Below, piece by piece: positions 8,173 to 46,819 of a DNA stretch of 64,000 bases (position 1 is the first letter of the stretch; each line of letters begins with the position of its first letter). Position numbers and translations under genes: made by a program. The stretch covers positions 1,364,001 through 1,428,000 of the forward strand of contig NZ_CP099391.1 in assembly GCF_023913515.1 (NCBI RefSeq), given 5' to 3'. This DNA comes from Natronococcus sp. CG52 (lineage in GTDB: Archaea > Halobacteriota > Halobacteria > Halobacteriales > Natrialbaceae). The notes beneath the pieces are model-generated. The model ran no database searches. It was not told the DNA's origin and worked only from the letters and a program-made list of their open reading frames with translations.

Positions 8173-8200
8173 AAGCGGGCCGGGCGCGATTTAAACACGC
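8173..8200 (-). repeat. Left attachment site, tRNA-Lys 3' fragment
   Basis: 28 bp matching the acceptor and T-arm end of tRNA-Lys at 46743-46770, with one difference (A at 8193 against G). It contains GGGCCGGGCGCGATTT but is not followed by a D arm or anticodon arm, so it is a fragment rather than a gene. It marks the distal end of the element. Confidence 0.85.
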
Positions 8201-8351
8201 CCACCTTTTACCTGCGCGGGCGTGCGGCGGCTTACGCCGCCGTTCCTGCTCGCAAAAGCTGGACCAAAAATTGAAGAGTCAGCCACTGTCAAAAGTGGAG
8301 CTACAGGTCTCTTGCGCGCGTCAGGCCTCGGGTCGAGTCGCTCACGCAACC

Positions 8352-9374
8352 ATGACAACAAACGACCTCGACCCGATCGACCCCGGAACAACGCTCGAAA
8401 TGTACTTGCAATCCCGGCAGAGCGAACTCGCTAATAGTTCACTTGCAGCGCATCGACGACGGTTATCTCTGTTCGTCGATTGGTGTGACGAAGCGGGGAT
8501 CAATACTCTCGACGAGCTGTCTGCCCGAGACCTGCACGAGTTCCGCGTATGGAGACAGCAGGGGATTAAGAAAGATAGTATCTCACCAGAGACGCTCCGT
8601 TCTTCATTGTTGACATTACGTGTCTACCTCCGATTTGCAGCTTCGGTGGATGCTGTCGATCCCGATCTTCCTGAACAACTCGTACTACCAGCCGAAGCGA
8701 AGCGAGCAAGAGACGTAATGCTCGATACGGATCATGCTGAGGAGCTTCTTTCACACTTAAGTAAGTTTGAGTATGCGACCACCCCACATAGTATGCTGCG
8801 CATTTTTTGGGAGACGGGTATCCGTTCAGGAACACTCAGAGCATTAGATCTGGATGATTATCGTCGAGATCAACAATGCCTTAGAATCCGGCATCGGCCG
8901 AAGACTGGAACACCCTTGAAAAACGGCAATGACGCGAATCGTCTCGTTGCAATCAAAGAGCGGACGTGCCGTATTCTCGATGATTATATCGACGAGTACA
9001 GGTACGATGTGACAGATGAACACGGACGACGACCGCTATTCAGCACGGAATTCGGTCGTCGATCATGCCAATCTGTTCGGGCGAACGCCTATTTTTGGAC
9101 ATGCCCGTGTAGAGTAAACCTGCAGTGCCCACACGGGCGAGATCCGGATACGTGTGAGAGTAATAACTGGGAGGATGCATCAACGTGCCCGAGTAGCGTA
9201 TCGACGCACCCAATTCGACGAGGCTCAATCACGCATCACCTCCGTGAAGGCGTACCTGTAGCCGTAGCGTCCGACAAAACGGATGTATCACCATCTATAC
9301 TAGACGCCCACTACTCAGAAATTTCCGAATCGGAGGCTATGGAGGTGAGAAGAGATTATCTGAGCAATATTTAA
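8352..9374 (+). CDS. Tyrosine recombinase/integrase
   Basis: 340 residues from ATG 8352 (the frame extends to 8271 over the att flank). The N-terminal SAM-like DNA-binding domain (about 10-110) is followed by the catalytic domain with Arg158 (ETGIRSGTLRAL), His286 and Arg289 (HPIRRGSITHHL) and the nucleophile Tyr321 (LDAHYSEIS). A Cys-rich insert at 251-279 (CPC, C259, C268, C279) precedes the HxxR motif and may bind zinc, as in other haloarchaeal integrases. Its place just inside the left att site shows it integrates and excises this element at tRNA-Lys. Confidence 0.95.
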   Translation: MTTNDLDPIDPGTTLEMYLQSRQSELANSSLAAHRRRLSLFVDWCDEAGINTLDELSARDLHEFRVWRQQGIKKDSISPETLRSSLLTLRVYLRFAASVDAVDPDLPEQLVLPAEAKRARDVMLDTDHAEELLSHLSKFEYATTPHSMLRIFWETGIRSGTLRALDLDDYRRDQQCLRIRHRPKTGTPLKNGNDANRLVAIKERTCRILDDYIDEYRYDVTDEHGRRPLFSTEFGRRSCQSVRANAYFWTCPCRVNLQCPHGRDPDTCESNNWEDASTCPSSVSTHPIRRGSITHHLREGVPVAVASDKTDVSPSILDAHYSEISESEAMEVRRDYLSNI

Positions 9375-19688: not shown

Positions 19689-20648
19689 ATGGGTGGAGGA
19701 GGAGGCGGCTACAATCGCCCGTCTAATAGCGGCGGATCGGGAGAGGGTTCTGACAATTCTGATGAAGATGGATCTAATAGCGTACCTCCTCCTGAATCAG
19801 ATTCTGAGGGGGAGACGACTGGAGATCAGTCTGATGGGTCAAATGGAACAAATGACGAAGCGACTCCAGAAGGTCTACCAGCAACTGGTGGTGGGGGAGG
19901 TAGCGGTGCACCAGTAGCTGGCCCCGGAGAAGGGTCCGATGTCACGTCTGAAGAGGATGATTCAGAGTCTGTAGAGGAAAATACCGACTCTAAAAAAGAT
20001 GAGCAGAAAAGTGATCAAGAAGATTGTGGGGAGGAGCATGAAGAAGAGCGAGGCGATGAGGAGGCTGACGATAATCAGGAAGAAGACGAAGAGGATGACG
20101 AGGCCGATGATGAAGAAGACGAGTGTCTAATTGCAGAATCAGCTCTTCTCCACTCGCCGAACCCGGAACCGTTAGAAGATGCAGTTGAGGGAGATATCTG
20201 TTCAGTACGTCTTCGAGAGAAGGCAGTCTGTGTTGTAGATTCACGAGGAAGGACCATCGGAGCTATCGCTGAACCGTGGGTTAGTACATTGAAGGAGTGT
20301 ATCGAACAGGGCCGACAGTATCGGGCTCGGATTCTCGACATCGATGGTGGGAAATGCGAAGTCCAAGTAACCAATAAGTGTCTGCTTCACAAGGACATCA
20401 ATCTGACCGCTATCAATACTGCAGTACGGGATCAGCTTCATCCGGAGCTTCCCTTGTCAGTTGAAACAACGACTGAAGAGGTGGTTATTGTCACCGCTGA
20501 CGGATCCAAAGTTGGCGACGTTCCTGATCCATGGGCTCAACTTTTTAAGGAGTGTATCGATCAAGGACGGTCATACCAGGCAGAGGTTCGTGATGTTACA
20601 CCGGAGTATTGCAAAGTCAATATTCAGAGCGACACAAGTGACGAATGA
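19689..20648 (+). CDS. Gly-leader acidic protein with two C-terminal repeats, first gene of QueC-type operon
   Basis: 319 residues. It starts MGGGGGGYNRPSNSGG, goes on through a Gly/Ser/Asp/Glu-rich stretch with a second glycine cluster (ATGGGGGSGAP, about 65-75), and reaches almost pure Asp/Glu by 145. The C-terminal ~165 residues hold two related units (about 165-225 and 250-313), each with a strand, an R/S-x-G turn, then PWxxxxKECIxQGRxYxAxxxD. The ATG of the next gene overlaps its stop (20645-20648). No family was recognised. In Qat and type IV CBASS the QueC-like enzyme is encoded near a partner with an N-terminal Met-Gly; this protein fits that position (inference). Confidence 0.8.
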   Translation: MGGGGGGYNRPSNSGGSGEGSDNSDEDGSNSVPPPESDSEGETTGDQSDGSNGTNDEATPEGLPATGGGGGSGAPVAGPGEGSDVTSEEDDSESVEENTDSKKDEQKSDQEDCGEEHEEERGDEEADDNQEEDEEDDEADDEEDECLIAESALLHSPNPEPLEDAVEGDICSVRLREKAVCVVDSRGRTIGAIAEPWVSTLKECIEQGRQYRARILDIDGGKCEVQVTNKCLLHKDINLTAINTAVRDQLHPELPLSVETTTEEVVIVTADGSKVGDVPDPWAQLFKECIDQGRSYQAEVRDVTPEYCKVNIQSDTSDE

Positions 20649-21865
20649 TTATCGCAGGTGGCACTTATCACGAGTTGTGCCAGTTTCCTCCTGACACAGC
20701 TTTCTTTGGGTCAGGTGTACGAGCAGCCGCAGCTACTGAGACCATCGTCTCCTCTCGTAACCAACTCCACACATACATCGGGCCTGCCGACAAAGAGACA
20801 CTCGAAACTTACGCGGCCACGTTTGACTTCGATGTCCACATAACCGGAATTCCAGAGACAGTTAGCTTCGATTATCTGCATAACCACTCAAATCCCGTGC
20901 TCTCTCCATCAGAGGCATCCAACTATAATCGTAAACTTTCAGGAATTAGTGGAGACGCAATCCTACGATTCGGGCTCCTTGAAGGGACAGCAATTGTTTC
21001 CGGTGAGCGCGTTGTCTATGACCCTCAATCAGCAGATCCTGTCTCGTTCCATGCGAACGGCTCAACTGCCGATGAACTCGCTCTCGTTCTGAACTGTGAC
21101 GAAGCTGCGCAACTATCTGGAGAAGACGACTTAGAATCGATTTTTACAGAACTCATGACAGGCACTACTGCCGCAGACGTGGTCGTCCTCAAGCGGGGAG
21201 CCAGAGGGGCAATCGTTAGAACACCCAGTATGACAACCCGAATCCCAGTTTTTCAGACGAAATCTATTTGGGGAATTGGAAGTGGGGATGTGTTCACTGC
21301 TGTCTTTGCTGGGGAATGGGCCGAAAACGGCGAAACTGCCGTAGACGCTGCAATGACCGCTTCAAAGGCGACAGCGTATTACTGTAGACATCGGCATCTG
21401 CCGATTTCCAAAGAACTCGGTGAATCAGTATCCAATAGTGGTTCATCAACATTTATTTCACCGAACGCTACTCCTCCGACGGTTTATCTGGCAGGACCGT
21501 TCTTCGACATTGGCGAACGGTTCGTTGTTGAGGAAGTCAAACACCTCTTGGAGGGCGAGGGAGCTAACGTAATTTCACCCGTCCATGATATTGGTCGAGC
21601 TGCTGATTACGATAGTCCAGAGGAGGTAGCACAGCAAGACTTAGATGCAATTGAGCGAGCAGATCTCGTGTTTGCGTTATTGGACCATTTGGATTCTGGA
21701 ACGCACTTTGAGTTGGGATATGCTCGGAAGGATGGGACACCAGTTATCGGGTATGCGAATGATTTCGATACAAGCAGTGAAACCATGCTTTGCGGCTCTG
21801 GGTGTGAGGTGTATGAGGATCTGTCATCAGCGATCTATAATGCAATCTGGAGGGCATATGCCTGA
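20645..21865 (+). CDS. PfkB-like kinase fused to nucleoside 2-deoxyribosyltransferase
   Basis: 406 residues. Residues 1-260 look like the ribokinase/PfkB fold, with the late catalytic loop SIWGIGSGDVFTAVFAGEWA (Asp215 as likely base). Residues 277-406 are a nucleoside 2-deoxyribosyltransferase domain: PTVYLAGPFFDIGERF at its start and the catalytic Glu356 in SGTHFELGYARKDGTPVIGY. Such enzymes phosphorylate sugars/nucleosides and cut or transfer N-glycosidic bonds, so the fusion could recover or make a modified nucleobase or nucleotide. It overlaps both neighbours (4 bp and 8 bp), so the three proteins are made together. Confidence 0.88.
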   Translation: MIIAGGTYHELCQFPPDTAFFGSGVRAAAATETIVSSRNQLHTYIGPADKETLETYAATFDFDVHITGIPETVSFDYLHNHSNPVLSPSEASNYNRKLSGISGDAILRFGLLEGTAIVSGERVVYDPQSADPVSFHANGSTADELALVLNCDEAAQLSGEDDLESIFTELMTGTTAADVVVLKRGARGAIVRTPSMTTRIPVFQTKSIWGIGSGDVFTAVFAGEWAENGETAVDAAMTASKATAYYCRHRHLPISKELGESVSNSGSSTFISPNATPPTVYLAGPFFDIGERFVVEEVKHLLEGEGANVISPVHDIGRAADYDSPEEVAQQDLDAIERADLVFALLDHLDSGTHFELGYARKDGTPVIGYANDFDTSSETMLCGSGCEVYEDLSSAIYNAIWRAYA

Positions 21866-22445
21866 GTCCGTTCTATTATTATCCGGCGGTCTCGATTCTG
21901 CTACACTTGCATATACACATAATCCGGACCTTACGGTGACTGTTGATTACGGGCAATGCTGTGCGGACGCAGAGATCCAAGCCTCAGCACAAATTGCCGA
22001 TCAGCTGAATCTTGAGCATGAGGTCATCGATGTGGATTGTAGAAGTTTAGGTGCTGGTACAATGGCAGGCCAGCAGGAGACTGACCTCGGTGATGCTCCG
22101 GAGTGGTGGCCATACCGGAATCAACTCGTGATCACGCTAGTCGCAATGGATGTCGTTCGTCGAGATGCAGAGCGATTGTTAGTCGGTGCGGTCGCCGACG
22201 ATCAAGACCATGCTGATGGGCGGGAAGAGTTTTTCGAGCTAATGGATTCTCTCCTCTCTTTTCAAGAAGGAGATCTCAGGGTTGAAGCTCCGGCAATAGA
22301 TAGAACAACAGAAGAGTTTGTACGCGAAGCCAACCCTCCTGAATCACTCCTCGGGTGGACTCATTCTTGTACAGCATTGAACGCCGCATGCGGCGAATGC
22401 GGTAGTTGCAAGAAACGGCAACGTGTTCTCACTCGCATCTACTAG
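21858..22445 (+). CDS. QueC-like 7-cyano-7-deazaguanine synthase family protein
   Basis: 195 residues from ATG 21858, overlapping the previous gene's stop by 8 bp. The PP-loop ATP pyrophosphatase motif SGGLDSAT is at 9-16, and four cysteines for the structural zinc are at 171, 178, 181 and 184 (HSCTALNAACGECGSC). True QueC makes preQ0 from carboxy-deazaguanine in archaeosine synthesis. Here no queD, queE or tgt is adjacent and the partners are a Gly-leader protein and a deoxyribosyltransferase, so a specialised role in a conflict system is more likely than housekeeping. It is shorter than typical QueC (~220-230). Confidence 0.88.
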   Translation: MPESVLLLSGGLDSATLAYTHNPDLTVTVDYGQCCADAEIQASAQIADQLNLEHEVIDVDCRSLGAGTMAGQQETDLGDAPEWWPYRNQLVITLVAMDVVRRDAERLLVGAVADDQDHADGREEFFELMDSLLSFQEGDLRVEAPAIDRTTEEFVREANPPESLLGWTHSCTALNAACGECGSCKKRQRVLTRIY

Positions 22446-22503: not shown

Positions 22504-22587
22504 TATAGTAGCCACTGAAACTGTTTACACACCGATCGTACAGCACTCGTGCGATCGGGTGTGCACTGACTGTCAGTGGCTACTATA
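22504..22587. mobile_element. MITE-like element, copy 1
   Basis: 84 bp with perfect 15-bp terminal inverted repeats, TATAGTAGCCACTGA (22504-22518) and TCAGTGGCTACTATA (22573-22587). The interior contains GTGCGATCGGGTGTGCACTG. A related 72-bp copy lies in the chromosome at 50033-50104. There is no room for a transposase, so it would move with enzymes supplied elsewhere. It sits between the QueC-like gene and a convergent gene. Confidence 0.75.
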
Positions 22588-22608
22588 TTTCTATCAACGG
22601 CCGATACC

Positions 22609-26955: not shown

Positions 26956-28122
26956 TTAAGGGTTAAACGAAGTACAGCTTCGGCACCGAAGTGAATCTTT
27001 GATAGTCTGTAGAGGATTCTCTGCGGTAAGTTCTCGATCACAAGACGAACATTGAGCGTTTTCTGTGGGTCCGATACCGTTCCCATATCCGACAGTGACT
27101 GTTCGGATTACTCCTTCCTCAGCCAATTCGATATCCATCTCTCCTCGCTCATACTCTACTTGCGTTACCGTGAGAGGGGCCACTCGAACGTCTAACGCGT
27201 GGCGCTTACGGATCTCTTCCTGCTTCTGAGGATATCCCTGATCTCGTTGCTCGTGCAGGTCTCTTAATTCCGAATCAATCTCCTCGTACTCTGCTTTCAG
27301 CTTTTTTCTCTCCTTAAGTGCCTCTACGCGGTCATCTTGGTCACTACCGTTGATCGCTTCACTCAGTTCGTCGATCTTCGAGGATAGCTTCGAACGTTCT
27401 TCTTCCAACTCTTGGATACGTTGTTGTTGCAGCTCGCGGTACTCTTCGACCTCTGCGTCTGCAGCTCTGGATGCCTCTCTGTGAACTTCGTCAATTTCGG
27501 TCTGCACCTTTTCCATTAGCTGACTCTGAGCGGTGTCGAGAAGTGAACGAGTGTCTGTTTCCGAAAACGACGATTGAGAGTTAGTAGATATCTTGTCTGT
27601 GGTCATCGACGTCATTCGGAGAAACGTCTCTTCCAACTCTGGAAGGCTCTGTTCCGAGTGACCATCTATGGCGATGGCCCGAAGGAACTCTTGCTGATAC
27701 TCACTGACGGTCTCGATACTCACCCGGAAGAGCACCACAATCGCCGCTCGGTCGTAATATGGTGTGAATTGGGTTTCCTTTACTTCAACATCGCTTCCCT
27801 CCAGCCACTGTGGTATCTCTACTTCGGCCTGATCGGTTTCTATCGTCAGCTTTCCCGTGGGATGACGTTCACTCGCTTCTCTGAGAATCCGCTGGAAAAA
27901 CTCACTCTCCGGATGAAGAGGCTCTCCAGTAAACTCCTCATCGATGTCGTCGCCAGTGAGTAACGACATCTTCCCGGCTGGCAATCCCGTGTCCTCATTC
28001 TCGGGGACGATAACCTCCCATTTGTCCCCTTGTTTCTCGATAGTACCGCCAAGCGATTCTAAGTAGCGTTCGGTAAATTCCTCGACTGCGGACTGTGTAA
28101 CCGCGAGGGCTGCATCAGTCAT
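26956..28122 (-). CDS. Coiled-coil zinc-ribbon protein partnered with SNF2 helicase
   Basis: 388 residues from ATG 28122, which overlaps the helicase stop by 8 bp; the frame extends upstream only as a shadow of the helicase. Residues ~215-330 are a long charged coiled coil (RELQQQRIQELEEERSKLSS). The C-terminus has two CxxC pairs (CSSCDREL, CRSCTSF), a probable zinc ribbon. The N-terminal ~200 residues are alpha/beta and unrecognised. It is the second gene of the leftward helicase operon and divergent from the ATPase, so it probably belongs to the same defence complex. Confidence 0.8.
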   Translation of the reverse strand: MTDAALAVTQSAVEEFTERYLESLGGTIEKQGDKWEVIVPENEDTGLPAGKMSLLTGDDIDEEFTGEPLHPESEFFQRILREASERHPTGKLTIETDQAEVEIPQWLEGSDVEVKETQFTPYYDRAAIVVLFRVSIETVSEYQQEFLRAIAIDGHSEQSLPELEETFLRMTSMTTDKISTNSQSSFSETDTRSLLDTAQSQLMEKVQTEIDEVHREASRAADAEVEEYRELQQQRIQELEEERSKLSSKIDELSEAINGSDQDDRVEALKERKKLKAEYEEIDSELRDLHEQRDQGYPQKQEEIRKRHALDVRVAPLTVTQVEYERGEMDIELAEEGVIRTVTVGYGNGIGPTENAQCSSCDRELTAENPLQTIKDSLRCRSCTSFNP

Positions 28123-29869
28123 CGCTTTCCCCCAGATCAAAGCCTTCGAAGACACCGCTGTTGAACTCCTCCAGTTTGTCAGCGAGTTCGCGTTGCTCCT
28201 GTAAATCGACGGCCATCGCATCGAAGTCGTTCTCCAAATCGACTTCTGAATCAGCATTGACCAGTCGCTCGAAAATCTGGTCTTCGAAACTCGTCCCGGA
28301 CTCTTCTAATCGACTCAGGATTGAACTCAGTTCTCCCACACTCTGTTGGAACAAGTCGATTTTATGGTAGAGCCGCTCCAGCACGTATTCTTCAACAGTA
28401 TCCTTCAGTGCCATATTGAAAATGAAGACATCTCGTTTCTGTCCGATACGATGGACACGCCCGATCCGCTGTTCAACGCGCATCGGATTCCACGGTAAAT
28501 CCATGTTCACCAGCAAATTACAGAACTGGAGATTGCGTCCTTCACTCATCGCATCGGTTGAAACGAGGATACCTCCTTGCTCCTCGAAGTTCTCCACGAT
28601 CTCCTCTTTCTCACTACTGGAGTGCCCGCCATGGAACGCGTGAACTGTATACCCCTCTGAGGCAAGTCGGTCGAGCACCTGTCGTTGGGTCGCTCGGAAC
28701 TGCGTGAAGACGATCACGCGCCCCATCTCGACATTGTCGCGGGCCTCTTCGACGATGTCCAGGAGTCGCTCCTGTTTCGTTACCGTATCGATATCTTCGA
28801 TCAGGTCCAGAATTGACTCCAGTTCGTCCGCGTGAGTGAGTTCAGATTGCTCATAGAGTCGTTTCTCGATTGTTTTCTTGAGCGCTACGGGGCTGCTAAC
28901 GACCTCCTTCTGGAGGAGCATCAACACGAGCTTCTGTCCCTGATTCTGGCTGTAGGCACCCTTGACGTAGTCAGAGACTGCTTGGTAGAGTTCACGTTCC
29001 TTTGGAGTCGGATCGAACGTCCGTGTATCGACAGTTCGGTCCGTGAAGTCAATATCCGTGTCTTCTCGTCGGTTCCGGATCATCACCTTGTTCAGTCGTT
29101 CCTGTAGCTCGTCTCGGTTCACCAGCGTCTCCTGATTGCTGTTCACGAAGTACTGATGGAAGACATCGCGTGTGCCGAACAGGCCGGGGCGGAGTAGCGA
29201 GACGACGTTGTACAAGTCCGTTAATTCGTTCTGGATTGGCGTTGCCGTCAGGAAGAACGCGTAGTTGTACGTGAGCCGGTCGATCAGGGCATATCGGTCT
29301 GTCTCTTCGTTCTTGACGTAGTGTGCCTCGTCGAGTACCAAAACGTCCCAGTTGCGGTCAAGTACCGTCTGTCGGTGTCGTTCACTCTTCGCAGTGTCGA
29401 TGCTCGCAATGATGTAGTCGTGTGCGTCAAAATCCTCGAACTCATCGTCATAGTTGCATACAAAGTCGAGGCCGAACTTCTCACGGAGCTCAGCCTGCCA
29501 CTGTTTCGCCAGTTGTGCAGGCGTGAGAACGAGCACGGACTCATCCGTGTCCCGAAAATGCATCTCCTTGAGAATCATCCCGACCTCAATGGTCTTTCCA
29601 AGTCCGACCTCGTCAGCAAGGAGGGCTTTCCCATCCATCTCGAAGAGGGCTCGGTAGGCTGCATCCACTTGATGTTCGAGTAGCTTGACGGAGTTTTCGT
29701 CCAACTCCTTCAGCGACCGAAGTTCAGAGTCCGGCTGACCCGCCTGAAGACGAACGGCCTGGATACTCTGTAGATGGTTCCCATCGGTAGTGTCGGTAGA
29801 TAGGGAGTCGAGAAGATCGTCCGCAGGCTCGTGTGAGACCTCAACATCGACGAGGTCGTAGCCTCTCAT
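28115..29869 (-). CDS. SWI2/SNF2-family helicase of Hma-like system
   Basis: 584 residues. The SF2 motifs are in order: ADEVGLGKTIE (Walker A, about 85-95), DEAH (180-183), FLTATPIQNEL (motif III), VIVFTQFRATQRQVL (motif IV), and VEQRIGRVHRIGQKR (motif VI). This is the RapA/SNF2 type of ATP-driven DNA translocase. It is the first gene of a two-gene leftward operon whose promoter region (29870-30011) is shared with the divergent ATPase gene. Helicase, large ATPase and DUF1156 methylase together match the arrangement named Hma (helicase, methylase, ATPase). Confidence 0.93.
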   Translation of the reverse strand: MRGYDLVDVEVSHEPADDLLDSLSTDTTDGNHLQSIQAVRLQAGQPDSELRSLKELDENSVKLLEHQVDAAYRALFEMDGKALLADEVGLGKTIEVGMILKEMHFRDTDESVLVLTPAQLAKQWQAELREKFGLDFVCNYDDEFEDFDAHDYIIASIDTAKSERHRQTVLDRNWDVLVLDEAHYVKNEETDRYALIDRLTYNYAFFLTATPIQNELTDLYNVVSLLRPGLFGTRDVFHQYFVNSNQETLVNRDELQERLNKVMIRNRREDTDIDFTDRTVDTRTFDPTPKERELYQAVSDYVKGAYSQNQGQKLVLMLLQKEVVSSPVALKKTIEKRLYEQSELTHADELESILDLIEDIDTVTKQERLLDIVEEARDNVEMGRVIVFTQFRATQRQVLDRLASEGYTVHAFHGGHSSSEKEEIVENFEEQGGILVSTDAMSEGRNLQFCNLLVNMDLPWNPMRVEQRIGRVHRIGQKRDVFIFNMALKDTVEEYVLERLYHKIDLFQQSVGELSSILSRLEESGTSFEDQIFERLVNADSEVDLENDFDAMAVDLQEQRELADKLEEFNSGVFEGFDLGESDD

Positions 29870-30011
29870 ACTTTCGTAGAGACAAGTATGCGTGAAATAC
29901 GTTTTGTGACCGACAACCCTGATCAGTACATCTTACGAGACTCACAAAACAGACTGAACCCACAGGACCATAGTGCTTATTGGGTGTCAAAGGAGTCTGG
30001 TAAGTATCAAG

Positions 30012-33000
30012 ATGGCACAAACCGGATCTTTATCAAATACCCTCGAAGACACGGTGACTCTCAGCCGTGAACTTCGAGAAGACGGACAGATCGATGGTCA
30101 AGTAAAGCTCTACAACGTTGACGACGACAACGAATTCGAGTCCGACGCGGAGCTCTTCTTCGAACGGACGCTGATGACTCAGGGGCTCCGAGAGGCCCTC
30201 TCGATCCTCCGAGATTCCTTGACTGGCGATGACCCACGGGGGACGCACATCCTCTATGGCCCGTACGGCAGTGGGAAGTCGCACCAGATGGTAGCACTAT
30301 ACCACTGTTTTGATGACCCCCAAGCAGCAGGCGCATGGACGAGCGATTCAATCGAAGGGTTTGATGCTGCGCTCCCGGAGTCGGCAACGCCGATTACGGT
30401 CGCCATGCAGAACGAACAGTACGAGTACCTCTGGGAACCGTTCTTCGAGGCACTCGATTACGATCCTGGAACGTTCAGCTCGGGCGGGTATCCCGATATG
30501 CAGACGATTCAGGAGGCTGTCGGCGACGAAACGGTCGCGTTCTTCGTGGACGAACTGGAGGACTGGTTTGACACACTCCAGGGCGACCGCAAGAGTGCGA
30601 ACAAAGCCTTCCTTCAGTCACTCCTCGAATCGACGGCGCTCTCGGACCTCGAACTGTACACTATCGTCTCGGTGCTCCGTGAGGGTTCCGAGGTTCACGA
30701 CATTCTGAACCGGGAACAGGCGGTCGAGGTTAATATGAACAACCAGGTGGACAAACGCGAGGTCCTTCGCCACCGCCTGATCGACTCCGTGGACGAGAAT
30801 GCTGCCCGTGAGATCGTCAACGGGTACTTTGATGCCTACGACCAGTCCGACCACGTCACCATTCCCGACGGTCTGCTGTCGGAAATGCATGACCTGTATC
30901 CGTTCCATCCCGTGCTTCTGGACGCGCTTGAGACGCGCTACTACGCCGACGAGGACAATCAGAACACGCGCGGGATGATCTACCTCTTCTCGAAGGTCCT
31001 CTTGCAGATGCAGGATCAGACGGACCTGATCACGCACGGCGACATCGACGCCATCGAGTTCGAGGACGAGCTGGCGAAGATCAATTACGAACGGTTGAAC
31101 GCCGCAACTGGTGACATCAAAAGCCGTGTCGACACAGATGAAGTTCCTCACGGTCGCCGCATCTTGAATACGATTCTGCTATACTCGTTGAAGCCCAGTG
31201 AGGGCGAGGGGGCGGAGGTCTCTGAGATCGTGATGGGGGCCTACCAAACGGACGACCTCGTCTCCGACGTCGTGCTCAACCTCGAACGACTCCACGGTGT
31301 CGCGTGGCACCTCCACAAACTGAACGGGAAGTATGCTATCCGTGACCGTCAGAACCCGAACGCACTTATTCGAAATGCAGCTGTTGATGTCTCGGAGACG
31401 TCAGCGAAAGCCGAGATCGCGGACTTCATTACGGATATCTTTGGCTCGAACGCGTACCCGGTCGGGTTCCGGACGAACGACATGCGGGACATCCCGGATG
31501 ACCGTGAGGTGAAAGTCGTCGTGAAGGACAGTCAGTGGGTGCAGGAGGAAGTTAAGAAAGTAATCACGAACGATGGCCGCGGACGCGAATGGCGCAACAC
31601 GCTCGTGTTCGTCCAGCCATCCGGTGACAAAGCCATCGAATCAGGCACGCGGTACATCGACAAGGCGCGGTACATCGAGGGAGCGCGGCAGGTACTCGCG
31701 GATGAGTCCCTCGACAACGAAATCCGCGCGTCGATTCGGGGTATGAAGGAGCAAGAGGAGAACGAACTCCGTGAAGAGCTTCAACTCCTGTACGGCGAAG
31801 TCATTGACGGCGAGAATCTGTTGGATGACGACGAGTGGGCAGACGTAGAGCCGATGGATCTCGACGTTTTCGTCCTCGATGACGCCGAACTCGACGCGAC
31901 AAATATCGCAGATTCAGCTGCTGCTGACCCGTTCGATCTTCAGTCGCACGTCTGGGATATCGCTGAAGACCTGCTGGAGCGACGCGGGGAGATCTCGGTC
32001 GAAGACATCTACGAGCAGTTCCTCCGCGACCCGGAACTCCCGATTCCCGGAAGCGCGAACGACGTGCTGAACGCGACGGTCAAGGCGCTCTCAGACAAGC
32101 CGGTTCTCGCCCGTGATACAGGTGGATTCCGCGACGACCTCTCTGGAAGCTCGCTTGATACCGTCCTCGTCCGGCAAGATGACGTGGACGTGTGGGGTGT
32201 TGATGACGTCGAACAGGAACTACGCCAGCGCTTCGGTAGTGGGACGACGGCGCTCGATATCGGAGACTTCGAACTGGAACTCGTCGAAGATGGGGAAATC
32301 TGGCTCGATGGCGATAGCCACGACGTCGTTATGCGTGCCATTGGTCGGCTCGCCCGTGAGGCACAGTATGTCATCGTGAAAGGGAACGAGATTCTCGACA
32401 AGCCGCAGTCCGACGCAACGCTCCGCGATGTCGGCGGTGCGGATGTCGTCGGTGCATCGTCCCTCGTGGACCGCATCGAGACACACATCAACGAAGACGG
32501 CTACGCGAACCTCGACACGATCATCGGCGAAATCCGCGGGGAGGAATCGGTGTTCCTCCCGCCGGACGAGACTGAGTCCGTCGCCCGCGAGGCGGTCAAC
32601 GATTTCCTTGTGGACGACTACGTCTTGGAAGCCGGCGGTCGATACCTCGGGTCGCTTGGCGACCGCGACCCGACGACGGTGAAGATCGTCCCGACGGTTC
32701 CCGACCGGATCGGTGACCAGATTCTGGAATACATCGAGGACCTAGAACCGGGTGACCAGTTCACGGTGAACAAAGTCACCGATCGGTTCGACAGCAGCGT
32801 CACCGAGTATATGGTACGGACATACCTGCTGGAGAACATCGGGAAGGACGAAGAACCAGAGTACGTCGTCAACACGACCGGCTCGGAGAAAGCCTCCGAC
32901 TGGGTACCTGGGTACCCGTTCCGGAAGGCCGACACGGAAATTCCCACGTGGCGCTTCGAGTACAACGGTGACGACGTCGCTGCGATGCGGAGCAAGTGGC

Positions 33001-33224
33001 GGAACAATCACCAGACAGGGAGTGTCGATTACGGCGACGTCACGTTCATGCTACCGGACAGGGAGGGTGTTCCCGGCGCTCTTCAGGGGACCGCCGACGT
33101 CGATCGGACGCAGGTCAGCCTAACATTGCGGTCTGGGCAAGACTACACGAAAGTGCAGGACCTGTTCGAGCGAATGCCCGATGAAGCATCGAGTCTGAAG
33201 ATCGAGATCAGTTTCCAGAAGTAA
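30012..33224 (+). CDS. Large DUF499-type AAA ATPase of Hma-like system
   Basis: 1070 residues from ATG 30012 (MAQTGSLSN); an in-frame start at 29973 lies in the promoter region. Walker A GPYGSGKSH is at 83-91 and Walker B VAFFVDELEDW at about 175-185. The length and the layout of an N-terminal ATPase followed by a long helical and winged-helix-rich C-terminus (EDIYEQFLRDPELP and similar) fit the DUF499 / BREX PglY-like ATPases. It probably powers target surveillance together with the divergent helicase. It is GC-rich compared with the next gene. Confidence 0.87.
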   Translation: MAQTGSLSNTLEDTVTLSRELREDGQIDGQVKLYNVDDDNEFESDAELFFERTLMTQGLREALSILRDSLTGDDPRGTHILYGPYGSGKSHQMVALYHCFDDPQAAGAWTSDSIEGFDAALPESATPITVAMQNEQYEYLWEPFFEALDYDPGTFSSGGYPDMQTIQEAVGDETVAFFVDELEDWFDTLQGDRKSANKAFLQSLLESTALSDLELYTIVSVLREGSEVHDILNREQAVEVNMNNQVDKREVLRHRLIDSVDENAAREIVNGYFDAYDQSDHVTIPDGLLSEMHDLYPFHPVLLDALETRYYADEDNQNTRGMIYLFSKVLLQMQDQTDLITHGDIDAIEFEDELAKINYERLNAATGDIKSRVDTDEVPHGRRILNTILLYSLKPSEGEGAEVSEIVMGAYQTDDLVSDVVLNLERLHGVAWHLHKLNGKYAIRDRQNPNALIRNAAVDVSETSAKAEIADFITDIFGSNAYPVGFRTNDMRDIPDDREVKVVVKDSQWVQEEVKKVITNDGRGREWRNTLVFVQPSGDKAIESGTRYIDKARYIEGARQVLADESLDNEIRASIRGMKEQEENELREELQLLYGEVIDGENLLDDDEWADVEPMDLDVFVLDDAELDATNIADSAAADPFDLQSHVWDIAEDLLERRGEISVEDIYEQFLRDPELPIPGSANDVLNATVKALSDKPVLARDTGGFRDDLSGSSLDTVLVRQDDVDVWGVDDVEQELRQRFGSGTTALDIGDFELELVEDGEIWLDGDSHDVVMRAIGRLAREAQYVIVKGNEILDKPQSDATLRDVGGADVVGASSLVDRIETHINEDGYANLDTIIGEIRGEESVFLPPDETESVAREAVNDFLVDDYVLEAGGRYLGSLGDRDPTTVKIVPTVPDRIGDQILEYIEDLEPGDQFTVNKVTDRFDSSVTEYMVRTYLLENIGKDEEPEYVVNTTGSEKASDWVPGYPFRKADTEIPTWRFEYNGDDVAAMRSKWRNNHQTGSVDYGDVTFMLPDREGVPGALQGTADVDRTQVSLTLRSGQDYTKVQDLFERMPDEASSLKIEISFQK

Positions 33225-33310
33225 TCTATCAAGGTCTTATACTGCTGTCACAGCGTTCCTGTGTACCGGACTCTAGAAAGCTATTCAACATTTCAGTATA
33301 CACACTCAAT

Positions 33311-34438
33311 ATGGCTCAATACGAGAATTACAAAAATACCGCAGTTAACTCTTTCCGGATTGCTGTTGAGTTATTTAATCGGCCCTTCAATAACGGTCGA
33401 ACGGAAGGTGTGCTGATATTTCTTGATCACAGTTTTGAAATGTTACTGAAAGCAGCGATTTTACGAAGGGGTGGCGAGATCCGAGGTGGGGGAGGTACCG
33501 GTCAGACGATCTCGCTGGAAAAATGTGTAAAAAGGTGCCGAGATGGAACAAGAGATAATCAGCGGATGCAATGTCTATCGCCTTCCGAATCAGCCGCGGT
33601 TTTTTCGCTAAATAATTTGAGAGACTATGCCCAACACGAGCAGGTTGATGTCACAGAGCAACAGCTGTATTTACAGTCAAGGCAGTGTACAGACATTTTT
33701 GAGCGTGTGCTTAACAATGTATTCAACGAGTCGCTATCCGATTACCTCCCCGGTCGTGTATTGCCTCTATCGACTACACTTCCAGTAGATATTTCGGCTG
33801 TTATAGACCGAGAGATGGAAGAGATACAGAATCTGATGCGGGATGGTGCCACTAACAAGGCTAGAAGGAAAATGAAAGCCTTGGATTCGTTGGAACGGGG
33901 TCTCGCTGATGAAGGTCAAACACCTGATCTTAGTGAATTGAATTCAAAATTAGAGTCAGTTGACGATCAGGAGATAGACGAAATCTTTCCGAGTACTTTC
34001 GCAGCGCTTTCTGACGGTGTAGATTCAGGAGGCGGCATTCGGATAAATTTGGGATCGGATGATCCCGGTATTCCTGCACGGTACGTTCCTGAAGATCAAA
34101 TTGGCGAAGAGGATGATGTATACCTATTCACAGAAAAGAATATACATGGGCGATATCCTTTTAATCCAATGCAGTTCAAGAAACAGGTTGATTCTGAATT
34201 ATCAGATGATTGCAGTTGGAAAAATGAACTCTCTTTACCAAGGCTGAAGACGATCTTAATGGAAATGGGGATTTGGGAGCGAGATGAATTTCATCAATCC
34301 GAATTATCACTAGGGGCTGGCGATACCCGGCCCGGTTATAGTCCGAAATGTGTGGATCGGGTTGTAGATACTATTGAGGCAGAAGAGGCCATCGTGGAGG
34401 ATGCTTGGGATAATTGGAAATCTGAACTAGGTTACTGA
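33311..34438 (+). CDS. DUF3644-type HEPN protein within the Hma-like locus
   Basis: 375 residues. The N-terminal helical part has HSFEMLLKAAILRRGG and the HEPN signature RDYAQH (Arg104, His109; R-x4-H), the catalytic motif of HEPN ribonucleases; the set matches the DUF3644 family. The C-terminal ~200 residues are acidic and unrecognised. HEPN proteins of this sort usually act as RNA-cutting toxins in defence, so an abortive-infection arm is plausible (inference). It lies between the ATPase and methylase genes, but its base composition is clearly more AT-rich than either, suggesting later insertion. Confidence 0.82.
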   Translation: MAQYENYKNTAVNSFRIAVELFNRPFNNGRTEGVLIFLDHSFEMLLKAAILRRGGEIRGGGGTGQTISLEKCVKRCRDGTRDNQRMQCLSPSESAAVFSLNNLRDYAQHEQVDVTEQQLYLQSRQCTDIFERVLNNVFNESLSDYLPGRVLPLSTTLPVDISAVIDREMEEIQNLMRDGATNKARRKMKALDSLERGLADEGQTPDLSELNSKLESVDDQEIDEIFPSTFAALSDGVDSGGGIRINLGSDDPGIPARYVPEDQIGEEDDVYLFTEKNIHGRYPFNPMQFKKQVDSELSDDCSWKNELSLPRLKTILMEMGIWERDEFHQSELSLGAGDTRPGYSPKCVDRVVDTIEAEEAIVEDAWDNWKSELGY

Positions 34439-34565
34439 TATCTTCGACCCCCCTCGTTAAGGATGACTATTGTCAAACCAGCCAATTGTACTTTTCCGGT
34501 TAGTCTCTAACCAAGAGAACGCACACTTATGTGGCTCGTGGATAATCGCATCTACATACTGAATA

Positions 34566-37250
34566 ATGTCTGAGCAATCTGGATCTTCACAGGGTCGGCA
34601 GGAACGGACGGAACTCCCCATCGAACGCGGGTTCCCCATTGAGCGCGTGAACGAGATCGCCGAGAAAGAGGGAAGGGCGAAGATGTACTACCGGCCGATC
34701 TACACGATGCACAAGTGGTGGGCGCGACGCCTCGGCTGTGTCTTCCGTGCGATCTCTCTCTACACACTACTTGACGATCCGGAGAAGGTCTCGGTGTTCG
34801 AACCGGGCCACGAGGGCAGCACCCTCGCAGCCTACGGTGACGACGCCGACGGCGAGTCCGATCTCGATGTCGCCTCGCTCCTTGAACGTGTGGATATGAC
34901 TGACCCGGAGAGCCTTTGGGAGCTCTACCCGAAGGACGTTCAGGTTGAGGACAAGAAGATTCTCGATCCGTTCATGGGCGGTGGGACATCGCTCGTCGAG
35001 GCGTCACGCTTCGGCGCGGAGGTCGTCGGCAACGACCTGAACCCCGTCGCCTGGTTCGTCACCAAGAAGGAACTCGAAGCGGGCCAGACCGACGTCGAAG
35101 AGCTTGAGGAAGCCTTCGAGCAGGTGAAAGAGGAGGTTGCCGACGAGATCACCCAGTACTACAAGACGCCTTGTCCGAACGGCGACCACGACGCCGACGT
35201 GATGTACAACTTCTGGGTGAAGGAACTAGACTGCATCTCTTGTGACTCAGAAGTCTCGCTAACTAATGACTACCGGCTTGGTAAAGGTAGGTATAGCGAA
35301 GATGACCGTTATAATGTAGTCTGCCCTGAGTGTGACTTCACTAACTTAGTGAAAGACTGGCATGAGGAGACTGTTTGTGGAGATTGTGGCAATGGATTCG
35401 TTCCGGATCAAGGGACTGTCGGACAGGGGAAATACACTTGTCGTGATTGCGGGCAGAAATATAAGATTGTAGATGCTGTAAACGAGCAGGACGGATTCTC
35501 TACTCGTCTGTATGCGATCGAGTACTATTGTTCGGTGTGCGAACAACAGGGAGCCAATAAGAGTGAATATAAGGGGTATAAGCGGGCTGAAGAGGAGGAT
35601 ATCAAACTCTTCAATGAAGCATGCAAACAGTGGGAAAACACAGATGAACACAAAAAATTTGTACCTGATGAAGAGATTCCGTTAGGAATTCTGTCAGATA
35701 GTTCAGCGTTTGAAGGCGGTATCGGCGGTGGACACAATATCCTGCGACAGGGGTACGAAGAATGGGCTGATATGTTCAATGAACGCCAGCTTCTTTGTCT
35801 GTCTAATATCTTAAGTCAGATTGACGAAATTGAGAACGAGAACATTCAAGAATATCTGCTCTTGGCGTTTTCTGAGAGTCTGAACTATAATACTATGTTG
35901 ACAGACTATAATCCCGGATATAACAAAATCCAACCGATTTTCAAAACAAACGCCTTCAGGCCTCCAGTAAAACCTATAGAAAACAATGTGTGGGGGACTG
36001 ATGAAGGGTCAGGCACATTCTCTGCAATGTGGGATATGGTGAAAACAGGAGTTGACTACGCTAATGCACCAACAGACCGTTACGTCACGAATGGAGAAAC
36101 AAATAAGACTGCAGAATTTGAGCAGACAGTCGGTAGTGCGAGTGAGTTGTTCTGTGGTGACGCCCGAAAGTTGGATTTCGAAGACGAATTTGATGCAGTA
36201 ATAACTGACCCACCATACTACGATAATGTGATTTACTCCGAACTATCGAATTACTTCTACGTATGGCAGCGTCTGCTATTGAAGGAACGCTACGATCATT
36301 TTCAACCTCACGAAACACCAAGAGCAGAGAGTATCGTTGCGAATCCCGCGGAAGGCAAGGGAGCTCCAGAATTTGAATCTGAATTGAAACAGGCATTCAG
36401 TTCGGTTCACAAAGCTCTGACATCAGATGGATCACTCACCTTCACTTATCACCACGCAAGTTCAGAGTCTTGGGGAGAACTGCTTGAAGCCCTCTGCGAG
36501 GTCGGATTTGAAGTTACCGCCACATATCCACTCACGGCAGACATTAACAAATTCATTGAGGGCGAAGCCGTCTCCTTCGACATCGTCGTCGTCGCCCGCC
36601 CTCTAGACGACACCGAGCCCGCCTCATGGAAGTCGCTCCGCCGTGACATCTACCGCACAGCCCGCCGCACCCGAAAACAACTCGAAGAGAACCGCGACCT
36701 CTCACGTGGTGACATCGGTGTGATGGAGATGGGGGCGTGTTTCCGCGAGTACTCGAAGCACCACGGTAAGGTCCAGCGCGACGGCGAGATCATGAGCGCG
36801 AAGGAGGTCGTCCAGGAGATCTACGGCATCATCCAGGAGGCCAGCGACATCGGCGTCGAGGACGTCTTCATCGACCTGCTGGACACATCGAACGTCTCCT
36901 ACGACGACGTGAACAAGCTCTGCCGCGGGACCAATGCCACCCCGGAGGACCTCAAGGAAACGTGCCTCTACAATCAGGATGACGGCTTCGAACTCGGTAC
37001 CTGGGACAACGAGAAGCGCCAGGCGTACATCCAGGAGCGTGTCAATGGCGACGGCGGCGACCACCTGTCGAACCTCGACAAGCTCCAATTCCTCCGCTAC
37101 CGCTACGAGAAGGGTCAGGCTGTCCAGAACTACGTCGAGAAGTGGGATGTTGATGACGACATGCGTGAGCTCGCTGGCCGACTCGCGGACGTGACTGGCG
37201 ACGACACGTACACGCGCGTGCTTGGGGACCGAGACATCACGAGTTACTGA
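34566..37250 (+). CDS. DUF1156-type DNA methyltransferase of Hma-like system
   Basis: 894 residues. The DUF1156 N-terminus (YYRPIYTMHKWWARRL, 41-56) is followed by the AdoMet site DPFMGGGT (134-141) and the catalytic motif DPPY (548-551, DPPYYDNVIYSE), giving an amino-methyltransferase (adenine N6 or cytosine N4). Between them are several zinc ribbons (CISC, CPEC, CGDCG, CRDCG, CSVC). The gene is a mosaic: about 35225-36550 is AT-rich, while both ends are GC-rich like the ATPase. It probably marks host DNA as self for the locus. Confidence 0.93.
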   Translation: MSEQSGSSQGRQERTELPIERGFPIERVNEIAEKEGRAKMYYRPIYTMHKWWARRLGCVFRAISLYTLLDDPEKVSVFEPGHEGSTLAAYGDDADGESDLDVASLLERVDMTDPESLWELYPKDVQVEDKKILDPFMGGGTSLVEASRFGAEVVGNDLNPVAWFVTKKELEAGQTDVEELEEAFEQVKEEVADEITQYYKTPCPNGDHDADVMYNFWVKELDCISCDSEVSLTNDYRLGKGRYSEDDRYNVVCPECDFTNLVKDWHEETVCGDCGNGFVPDQGTVGQGKYTCRDCGQKYKIVDAVNEQDGFSTRLYAIEYYCSVCEQQGANKSEYKGYKRAEEEDIKLFNEACKQWENTDEHKKFVPDEEIPLGILSDSSAFEGGIGGGHNILRQGYEEWADMFNERQLLCLSNILSQIDEIENENIQEYLLLAFSESLNYNTMLTDYNPGYNKIQPIFKTNAFRPPVKPIENNVWGTDEGSGTFSAMWDMVKTGVDYANAPTDRYVTNGETNKTAEFEQTVGSASELFCGDARKLDFEDEFDAVITDPPYYDNVIYSELSNYFYVWQRLLLKERYDHFQPHETPRAESIVANPAEGKGAPEFESELKQAFSSVHKALTSDGSLTFTYHHASSESWGELLEALCEVGFEVTATYPLTADINKFIEGEAVSFDIVVVARPLDDTEPASWKSLRRDIYRTARRTRKQLEENRDLSRGDIGVMEMGACFREYSKHHGKVQRDGEIMSAKEVVQEIYGIIQEASDIGVEDVFIDLLDTSNVSYDDVNKLCRGTNATPEDLKETCLYNQDDGFELGTWDNEKRQAYIQERVNGDGGDHLSNLDKLQFLRYRYEKGQAVQNYVEKWDVDDDMRELAGRLADVTGDDTYTRVLGDRDITSY

Positions 37251-37344
37251 AGGTCGTACCCTAACTCTACGCGGCTACGTTTTTCCTCCGTCGATTCCGA
37301 TATTGTCAGTGATGTTTTCACCGCCTCTCCTGCTATAGTGATCT

Positions 37345-38061
37345 ATGACTACATCTGGCGAGACAATCGTCGGCGTCGATGCCTGCCCGATCGGATGGTT
37401 TGCGACAGTTATTCACAACGACGGCGTCAGAACGGAGACCTACGAAGAGTTCGAGACACTCAGTGAAACCTACACTGAAGCAGACAGAATCCTCGTAGAC
37501 ATCCCTATTGGACTCCCAGAAGACGAGCGACGTCGATGTGACGAGGATGCAAGCGATCTACTAGGTAGCCGGGGAATGTCGGTCTTCTACCCGCCGTGTC
37601 GAAGCGCAGCTGAACTCACTCATTACGAAGAGGCGAACGATGAACACCGCGACCAAATCGGCCACGGACTTTCTCAACAGGCACACAATATCGGTCGAAA
37701 GAGTCTGCAGGTCGCCGACGTCGTTGGAGAGCGATATGACGGGGTGGTGCGTGAGAGCCATCCCGAACTATGTTTTGCTGCCCTGAACGGCCAGCCAATC
37801 GCCTATTCGAAATCTTCAGACCGAGGTCGCGGGCTTCGGATGAAACTGCTCAGTAACGAACTCGACGACGCCGAAGCGCTTTATCGGGATACACGAGATG
37901 AATACCTTCTCAAAGAGGTCCGAAGAGACGACATCCTCGACTCTATGGTGCTTGCCGTCGCCGCGCGAGATGGGAACTTGACGACAGTACCCCCGGATCC
38001 CTCATCGACTGAACCACGAATCTATTACCCGGAGTTCGATGTGCCGATCTTGGAGAGATAA
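37345..38061 (+). CDS. DUF429 family protein (predicted RNase H-like nuclease)
   Basis: 238 residues, the normal length. Family motifs are visible in order: VGVDACPIGW at the start, LVDIPIGLP (about 50), RRCDEDASDLLG, ESHPELCFAAL (about 140), and DDILDSMVLAVAAR near the C-terminus. The fold is predicted to be RNase H-like with acidic active-site residues. Such genes occur in defence islands and near DNA repair genes, but their substrate is not established. It stands on its own between the methylase and the GmrSD-type gene. Confidence 0.88.
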   Translation: MTTSGETIVGVDACPIGWFATVIHNDGVRTETYEEFETLSETYTEADRILVDIPIGLPEDERRRCDEDASDLLGSRGMSVFYPPCRSAAELTHYEEANDEHRDQIGHGLSQQAHNIGRKSLQVADVVGERYDGVVRESHPELCFAALNGQPIAYSKSSDRGRGLRMKLLSNELDDAEALYRDTRDEYLLKEVRRDDILDSMVLAVAARDGNLTTVPPDPSSTEPRIYYPEFDVPILER

Positions 38062-38105
38062 TGACATCCCAAGGTACTTTCTACCCTCCCTGAGCAATCA
38101 ACTGT

Positions 38106-40235: not shown

Positions 40236-40298
40236 CATCCGATTGCCGTAGCCCGCTTGAACTTGTCACACCGAGCTAGAATCAATCAATCACAGGTG

Positions 40299-40439
40299 AT
40301 GAAACGGTTATTCTGTCTCATACGTGAAGTTGAGTATGAAGAACCATGCGACAAGCTGAAAGCAGACGCCGACGAGCGTGCCGACCAACCAGACTTCGAC
40401 GCGTTACTCCCGCCGGAAGGCTTCGTCCGCGAAGACTGA
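40299..40439 (+). CDS. Small acidic protein
   Basis: 46 codons from ATG 40299: MKRLFCLIREVEYEEP, followed by an acidic end with DFDALLPPEGFVRED. It lies 44 bp ahead of the 127-residue gene on the same strand and has haloarchaeal-like codon use. The function is unknown; a real gene is plausible but unproven. Confidence 0.4.
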   Translation: MKRLFCLIREVEYEEPCDKLKADADERADQPDFDALLPPEGFVRED

Positions 40440-40483
40440 AGTACCGTACCCCTTTTTGACCCCTCGCCAACATTCCGTAGGTA

Positions 40484-40867
40484 ATGGCAGGACCTGGACA
40501 AATACCCGGACAGTATAATCTTGTTATCGAAGGTGCCTACGAAACCTTCGAACATCAGATCCCTGTGGAAGAGTTCCTCCAGCGGCTCAAGAAAGACGAT
40601 GTCCCCAAGAAGGTGAGTGTCGTCGGACTCTCAGATGCCTTGAGTGATGACGACCTGGCGAACGAACTCGCCCATGAGATGGACCGACGTGCGAACGATC
40701 TGGAGTATCAGAGCCCCACGGTACAGTTCGTTGTCAAAGGATCGTTCCACCGAAGCGGGAAGACCTACGACCTTCGATACGATGATGAACTCTACCCTCT
40801 CCAGCAGATCTTCGGTCCACAGCTTGAACGGAAAGAGGACGGAGAGTGGCTCGTCGCGCCGTTCTAA
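40484..40867 (+). CDS. Small unknown protein
   Basis: 127 residues. It contains QYNLVIEGAYETFEHQIPVE, a helical middle (LSDDDLANELAHEMDRRAND), and a strand-rich end with VQFVVKGSFHRSGKTYDLRYD. No family was recognised. It lies between GmrSD and McrC and is convergent with mcrC, with only 4 bp between the stops. Confidence 0.6.
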   Translation: MAGPGQIPGQYNLVIEGAYETFEHQIPVEEFLQRLKKDDVPKKVSVVGLSDALSDDDLANELAHEMDRRANDLEYQSPTVQFVVKGSFHRSGKTYDLRYDDELYPLQQIFGPQLERKEDGEWLVAPF

Positions 40868-40871
40868 CGCG

Positions 40872-46742: not shown

Positions 46743-46770
46743 AAGCGGGCCGGGCGCGATTTGAACACGC
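46743..46770 (-). repeat. Right attachment site within tRNA-Lys
   Basis: 28-bp direct repeat of 8173-8200 with one mismatch. It covers the acceptor end and T arm of tRNA-Lys plus four flanking bases, as is usual for tyrosine integrases that use tRNA 3' ends and leave the tRNA intact. Confidence 0.85.
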
Positions 46771-46819
46771 GACCGTCTGATTAAGAGTCAGACGCTCTGC
46801 CGGACTGAGCTACCGGCCC
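46747..46819 (-). tRNA. tRNA-Lys (anticodon CTT)
   Basis: Read on the minus strand it forms a full cloverleaf: acceptor stem GGGCCGG/CCGGCCC, D arm GCTC...GAGC, anticodon arm TCTGA-CTCTTAA-TCAGA (anticodon CTT), variable loop, T arm GCGTG-TTCAAAT-CGCGC. The 3' CCA is not encoded. The gene survives integration because the element carries the missing 3' end. Confidence 0.95.

Follow-up and report, generated by a model that had tools for sequence, protein, structure and literature searches.

Background and locus studied

Type IV CBASS (cyclic oligonucleotide-based antiphage signalling system) is the one system for which protein deazaguanylation has been demonstrated; for a second, Qat, it has been inferred. 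The enzymes of type IV CBASS are the QueC-like Cap9 and the tRNA-guanine transglycosylase (TGT) Cap10 (PMC11996544). Another set of QueC-like proteins, Cluster 4 of PF06508, carries the motifs SGGxDS, YGQ..E and CxxCxGCxK and is adjoined by a PfkB-PF05014 fusion in about 89% of neighbourhoods, a pairing that was read as possible purine salvage, with helix-turn-helix neighbours also mentioned (PMC13329287). The present analysis concerns a three-gene operon in a 64,000-nt stretch of the Natronococcus sp. CG52 genome (contig NZ_CP099391.1, positions 1,364,001 to 1,428,000; below, the window). It encodes a leader protein starting MGGGGGGYNR, a fusion of a PfkB-like kinase with a nucleoside 2-deoxyribosyltransferase (NDT), and a QueC-like ATP pyrophosphatase (Table 1). 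This operon is probably an N-terminal nucleobase-conjugation system located on a mobile defence island; it would add a third set, and a very widespread one, to these two.

Comparison with described systems

The window QueC-like protein shares SGGxDS, YGQ..E and CxxCxxCxK with Cluster 4, is slightly shorter than QueC, and lies in an operon with a PfkB-PF05014 fusion. The QueC/PfkB-NDT pair is thus already published (PMC13329287), and the operon is most likely an N-terminal conjugation system, related to those of Cap9 and QatC but not described before. The text of PMC13329287 makes no mention of HIRAN, nitroreductase, glycosylase or adenylosuccinate. Literature searches for PfkB/NDT together with a glycosylase, SagB, HIRAN or deazaguanylation returned only PMC13329287, PMC11996544 and PMC13279940, and in the papers searched nothing was found on the leader, its motif or its HIRAN fold, nor on SagB and OGG as members or on the PurA replacement described below. 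Conjugation is offered as a concrete and checkable alternative to the purine-salvage view of Cluster 4.

Type IV CBASS resembles the operon in its compact QueC-like enzyme with a base-reading Asp, in the Met-Gly-type start of the partner (PMC11996544, PMC13279940), and in the presence of a base transferase, TGT there and NDT here. It differs in that the operon partner is a HIRAN protein and not a CD-NTase (no CD-NTase domain was found in the three window proteins), that NDT-PfkB stands in place of TGT, that SagB is added, and that the base-pocket Tyr is replaced by His. A Cap10-type TGT is not part of the operon, and TGT was seen only in a divergent rhizobial locus (L052). The qatABCD system combines a QueC-family enzyme, QatC, with a partner, QatB, that has a disordered tail and a conserved Met-Gly start (PMC13279940). 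However, the operon enzyme (195 aa) is devoid of the N- and C-terminal extensions of QatC, QatB is helical whereas the leader has a HIRAN fold, QatC has Thr/Thr at both base-pocket positions (PMC13279940), and no KAP ATPase or TatD adjoins the operon. Plain membership of CBASS or Qat was consequently rejected, since partner and gene content differ.

The divergent rhizobial locus (L052:6001-10401, on the pTi of Agrobacterium leguminum) forms a bridge to type IV CBASS. This locus and its Rhizobium plasmid relatives (L234, L235) have a PfkB carrying a degenerate NDT, a TIR-TGT fusion, OGG, another QueC-like protein and a ThsB-type TIR protein starting MGGGGGG or MGGGSSG. The rhizobial set resembles the tools of type IV CBASS combined with a TIR partner, and the Gly tail looks like a portable tag, as the partner is TIR in rhizobia, HIRAN in the window and CD-NTase in CBASS.

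Conservation of the operon

The gene set occurs in archaea and many bacteria, in most cases on mobile DNA. Conservation was examined on 100 PfkB-NDT loci that span haloarchaea and some ten phyla of bacteria; because the loci were selected through PfkB-NDT, all counts describe what accompanies this fusion, and not the reverse. A scan of 84,980 species genomes yielded 80 further full-length loci and one of viral contigs 7, and searches with P0002 and P0003 located the PfkB-NDT/QueC-like pair on plasmids as well, from haloarchaea, from Proteobacteria and from one cyanobacterium. Among the loci, L047 is on a Citrobacter plasmid.

The leader gene, detected with a leader-domain model, is immediately upstream of PfkB-NDT in 100/100 loci, and a QueC-like gene follows PfkB-NDT in 92/100. 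An overlap of 4 nt recurs between leader and PfkB (51 of 99) and between PfkB and QueC (71 of 87). The arrangement is therefore far beyond chance, and constitutes a conserved mobile operon. In the window, the open reading frames overlap by 4 nt (leader/PfkB-NDT) and 8 nt (PfkB-NDT/QueC-like). The sequence-only reading, which had seen here one coupled unit, is confirmed, and rare co-occurrence, which it had named as grounds for abandoning the idea, is contradicted by genes that almost always occur together. A search for proteins in which one operon part is naturally fused to another gave no case. Further neighbours, per 100 loci, are an OGG-type glycosylase (81), a SagB-type dehydrogenase (64), Dam (30) and dGTPase (15), the first two being added in most bacterial loci.

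Seven loci (L098, L111, L112, L116, L118, L125 and L135), all without SagB, have a second leader-type gene after QueC, mostly with an MGG or MSG start, at about +1750 to +1830 from PfkB-NDT.

Leader protein

Start codons were chosen blindly, from a ribosome-site score and a preference for ATG with the protein sequence ignored, which gave MSG 69 times and MGG 16 times. With curated starts, M[SGCAT]G was found in 77 of the 79 unique QueC-type leaders. Residue 2 is Ser in 64 of them, Gly in 10, Ala in 2, Thr in 2 and Cys in 1, and residue 3 is Gly in 77/79 (97%), other tail positions being mostly 20-60% Gly. The tail itself varies in content and in length (15-188 residues to the first Cys). Among neighbouring annotated genes, the M-small-Gly start was encountered once in 118, in a gene that is itself partner-like. 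A disordered tail and a conserved Met-small-Gly start, as expected of N-terminally deazaguanylated substrates, are thus both present. In bacteria the candidate substrate is small (about 110 residues), so that the chemistry lends itself to direct testing.

Both C-terminal repeats of the window leader are real (Table 1), and structural modelling of a relative identifies them as HIRAN folds. The predicted structure of this compact relative, L087 (109 aa, from Methylomonas), consists of a disordered 20-residue tail (pLDDT about 55) and an all-beta domain (pLDDT about 91) that matches lp_0118 (3k2y) with Z 12.4 and the HIRAN domain of HLTF with Z 9.7 (86 residues, 2.2 A); a weaker match is to the C-terminal part of HamB from Hachiman (Z 7.8). 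The Pfam HIRAN model scores 17.4 bits on the window leader, under its gathering threshold of 24.7. The HIRAN domain of HLTF binds DNA 3' ends, and by analogy DNA-end binding is the likely activity of the leader. The repeats had at first been taken for a sensor or effector part; this was not supported as worded, and HIRAN folds with a likely affinity for DNA ends replace it. PADLOC PDC-M03B was rejected as the identity of the leader, the match being weak, limited to the HIRAN-like region and absent for the bacterial leader tested.

At the divergent locus L053, an unannotated leader starting MGSTGSG (L053:5066-5449) overlaps a divergent NDT gene by 4 nt.

QueC-like enzyme and base supply

The assignment of the last protein to the QueC family was borne out by Pfam QueC (1.1e-25). 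A housekeeping archaeosine QueC is excluded: the TIGR00364 model gives 78.7 bits for a cut-off of 150.3, and the host has its own canonical QueC elsewhere. The tree places 33 operon proteins in a single group (support 99/98), apart from 21 canonical QueC that include that of the window genome, rather than in the grouping with housekeeping QueC that would have spoken against the sequence-only reading. Cap9, for which part of the sequence was missing in the tree, falls on the operon side of the split. Kinship with protein-modifying enzymes also agrees with the predicted structure, which is nearest to Cap9 with its NDG product (9nto; Z 22.6, 2.0 A over 173 residues), ahead of QueC (19.0) and QatC (15.5).

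Invariant residues are S9, G10, G11 and S14, then Y31, G32, Q33 and E39, and finally C171, C178, C181, C184 and K186. The canonical YPDC pocket is H-x-D-G in the operon enzymes, with D120 invariant in 63 sequences and the stacking Tyr changed to His. In Cap9, the Asp equivalent to D120 reads the 7-deazaguanine edge and the Tyr stacks (PMC13279940). Unlike QatC, with Thr at both positions, the operon enzymes have a pocket that favours a guanine-like base.

No other queuosine or archaeosine genes were seen close to the operon, as had been noted from the sequence. Candidates for a canonical QueC together with QueE and QueD lie about 400 kb away (G000:C1:966694-968554), and 7-carboxy-7-deazaguanine (CDG) should therefore be available in this host. 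Six Bacteroidota hosts (G299, G306, G312, G314, G333 and G338) have QueD- and QueE-like genes and no QueC over the TIGR00364 cut-off. On a Roseivivax plasmid, a VUT-family (queuosine salvage) transporter gene (L045:8501-9040) stands shortly past the QueC-like gene.

PfkB-NDT and accessory enzymes

The window fusion is a single chain with PfkB (Pfam 3.4e-8) and Nuc_deoxyrib_tr (2.8e-18) domains, the latter (PF05014) scoring 66.6 bits, over the cut-off. The PfkB GSGD motif and the NDT catalytic Glu are retained in 100/100 loci, as are the catalytic Lys and Asp of the OGG-type glycosylase in 81/81. An OGG neighbour is also reported for type IV CBASS.

SagB/McbC azoline oxidases are known from pathways for ribosomally synthesized and post-translationally modified peptides. 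The operon gene found downstream in 64/100 loci matches TIGR03605, their model, as a distant relative (best 53.8 bits, E 1.6e-14, under the cut-off of 78.4); unlike in those pathways, no YcaO cyclodehydratase was seen with it, and its substrate, if it has one here, would be a single N-terminal Ser/Thr. SagB is present in 55 of the 66 unique loci with Ser/Thr at residue 2 and in none of the 13 with Gly/Ala/Cys, and after addition of six loci in 0/14 of the latter (Fisher p 5e-9). Mapped on the tree, the changes number 8 for residue 2 and 9 for SagB, without a conflict among independent pairs. The cleanest contrast is given by the sisters L060 (MSG, with SagB) and L065 (MGG, without). In the simplest chemistry, an acylated N-terminal Ser/Thr would cyclise to an oxazoline that a SagB-type enzyme then oxidises, which Gly cannot do.

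Replacement of QueC by a PurA homologue

In seven Bacteroidota loci the QueC slot is occupied by a homologue of adenylosuccinate synthetase PurA (E 5.6e-42). Among known enzymes, PurA and phage PurZ come closest to this protein, which is confined to one Bacteroidota clade. It retains GDEGKG and AGH but has neither the TTGRRR loop of E. coli PurA nor the C-terminal part, and it therefore probably uses another amine acceptor. Six of the seven accompanying leaders start MSKR, MKGK, MKDG or MKGG and not M-small-Gly, whereas the leaders of six other Bacteroidota loci with QueC are all MSG or MGG. In PurA, GMP synthetase and TilS, an activated oxygen is attacked by an amine. Because PurA and several QueC-fold relatives activate oxygen in this manner, the replacement can be read as two routes by which a purine becomes linked to an amine of a protein. 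A conserved gene of about 85 aa (LTDEEVLKEFVRRFECDGAVLIYLDS..EFGFGRW) without Pfam match lies directly upstream of the leader in the PurA-type loci L069, L096, L124 and L126.

Proposed mechanism

Under the favoured explanation, the initiator Met of the leader would be removed, and the QueC-like enzyme would use ATP to activate a purine carbonyl or, like Cap9, the carboxylate of a 7-deazapurine, and join the activated base to the exposed N-terminal amine. The attached base would next be tailored by PfkB-NDT, with transfer of a deoxyribose to it by NDT and phosphorylation of that sugar by PfkB; alternatively, the fusion might supply the base. Through its HIRAN domains the tagged leader would be directed to DNA 3' ends, for example of invading or damaged DNA. 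In bacteria, the OGG-type glycosylase may remove or sense the mark, and with Ser/Thr-start leaders the SagB-type oxidase could oxidise an oxazoline formed from N-acyl-Ser. These extra enzymes (NDT, kinase, SagB, OGG), together with the PurA swap, suggest a tag elaborated beyond the bare base. A bolder version, tentative and in our judgement more doubtful than not, has the QueC-like and PurA-like enzymes as two unrelated ligases that link a purine to a HIRAN protein in its N-terminal region, NDT-PfkB making a protein-linked deoxynucleotide and SagB turning a Ser/Thr start into an oxazole-linked base, so as to give protein-nucleotide conjugates aimed at DNA ends.

The conjugation reading is based on gene co-occurrence, the M-small-Gly start, the Cap9-like model, clade and Asp, the HIRAN fold, the change of start with the PurA swap, the absence of SagB at Gly/Ala/Cys2, the L052 bridge, and the defence-island and prophage context. 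The earlier proposal of an undescribed operon of the Cap9/QatC type is upheld by co-occurrence, the separate clade, the N-terminal motif, the Cap9-like model and the defence island, but not in its details concerning Gly2, the deazaguanine base and the role of the repeats.

Several results weigh against conjugation. Most leaders have Ser2-Gly3 and not Gly2 as in CBASS and Qat, so that of the presumed Gly-leader N-terminus what stands is a conserved M-[S/G]-G at a fixed position, and two QueC-type leaders are off the motif (L118, MSSKK; L050, MSSGD). One PurA-type leader, L114, still starts MGGGG, and the swap is a single evolutionary event on the tree, which makes its association with the start change suggestive and not statistical. 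For the link between residue 2 and SagB, independent pairs number 8 over all branches but only 2 where branches are well supported. Six hosts of QueC-type operons lack canonical QueC, and QueD and QueE were also not found in two such hosts (L061/G295, L118/G327), so that the modifying base may not be CDG; these absences are suggestive only, as the QueE/QueD searches also missed genes in QueC-bearing hosts (G293, G309, G325), which leaves the argument from CDG absence weak. With CDG synthesis undetected in a few hosts, the initial designation of the base as 7-deazaguanine is not supported in that form.

Alternative explanations

The QueC-like, NDT and PfkB proteins could instead form a purine-salvage or signalling pathway for a free modified (deoxy)nucleotide, the leader being a regulator that binds the product. 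The pair was interpreted as purine salvage in PMC13329287, and NDT and PfkB are small-molecule enzymes whose catalytic motifs are intact. We nevertheless regard this as unlikely, because it accounts neither for the conservation of the extreme N-terminus of the leader, beyond its fold, nor for the start change upon replacement of QueC by PurA, and because the operon is a mobile accessory (4/292 haloarchaeal genomes) of defence islands and not part of a metabolic core.

The low complexity of the tails would also suit a mere flexible linker, or an N-terminus modified (for instance acetylated) by the host, with DNA, tRNA or the like as the target of the QueC-like enzyme. In haloarchaea, acetylation is common on proteins that start Met-Ser or Met-Gly, the HIRAN, OGG and Dam genes point to DNA, and 7-deazaguanine DNA modification systems exist. 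Yet Gly3 is kept in almost all leaders despite the variable tail, the closest structural match of the QueC-like enzyme, Cap9, modifies proteins, and the usual operon has no DNA-inserting TGT, which together make this explanation quite improbable. The least credible alternative, to which we give very little weight, is a stand-alone toxin module in which infection would make PfkB-NDT deplete nucleotides or NAD, with the leader as a sensor of DNA ends and the QueC-like protein as the neutraliser. NDT-fold effectors are known from retron defence, and dGTPase genes are near 15/100 loci, but in L052 the NDT is degenerate while QueC, OGG and an MG-leader are kept, and the NDT is therefore not a constant effector.

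Genomic setting

Coordinates of the operon and of the surrounding island are given in Table 1. The island has a low G + C content (0.40-0.55 inside for 0.63-0.67 outside) and, given its Hma-like, GmrSD, McrBC-type and DUF3644 genes, constitutes a mobile defence island. Related loci were also found on prophage contigs in the scan of viral contigs. By analogy with its island neighbours, the operon may have an antiviral role.

Table 1. Features of the operon and of the island that carries it (positions in the window)
Feature	Position	Strand	Basis or remark
Leader gene (319 aa, MGGGGGGYNR...)	19689..20648	+	Disordered Gly/Ser/acidic tail and two HIRAN-fold repeats; proposed substrate protein
Leader N-terminus MGGGGGG	19689..19709	+	Proposed acceptor once Met removed
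HIRAN-like repeat 1 (leader aa 154-228)	20148..20372	+	E 7e-18, model from bacterial relatives; fold predicted from relative L087
HIRAN-like repeat 2 (leader aa 238-312)	20400..20624	+	E 2e-10, model from bacterial relatives; Pfam HIRAN E 0.004, under cut-off
PfkB-like kinase/NDT fusion (406 aa)	20645..21865	+	Pfam; catalytic motifs
NDT domain (fusion aa 278-376)	21476..21772	+	Pfam Nuc_deoxyrib_tr
QueC-like N-type ATP pyrophosphatase (195 aa)	21858..22445	+	SGGxDS, YGQ..E, WWPxRN, DxxHxDG, CxxCxxCxK
Direct repeat of tRNA-Lys 3' end; likely left attachment site	8173..8192	+	20-nt match to 46743-46762
Tyrosine integrase, beside left repeat	8271..9374	+	Phage_integrase
tRNA-Lys; likely right attachment site	46745..46819	-	
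Defence genes of the same island: DrmD/HmaA-like helicase, HmaC/DUF499, DUF3644 (PDC-S19), HmaB-like methyltransferase, GmrSD, McrBC-type pair	28115..43861		

Two further elements adjoin the operon, both judged by eye: a serine-recombinase-like open reading frame (18404-19093, - strand) and, directly past the operon at 22504-22590, an inverted repeat (tatagtagccactga...tcagtggctactata) that could be an element resembling a miniature inverted-repeat transposable element, or a hairpin.

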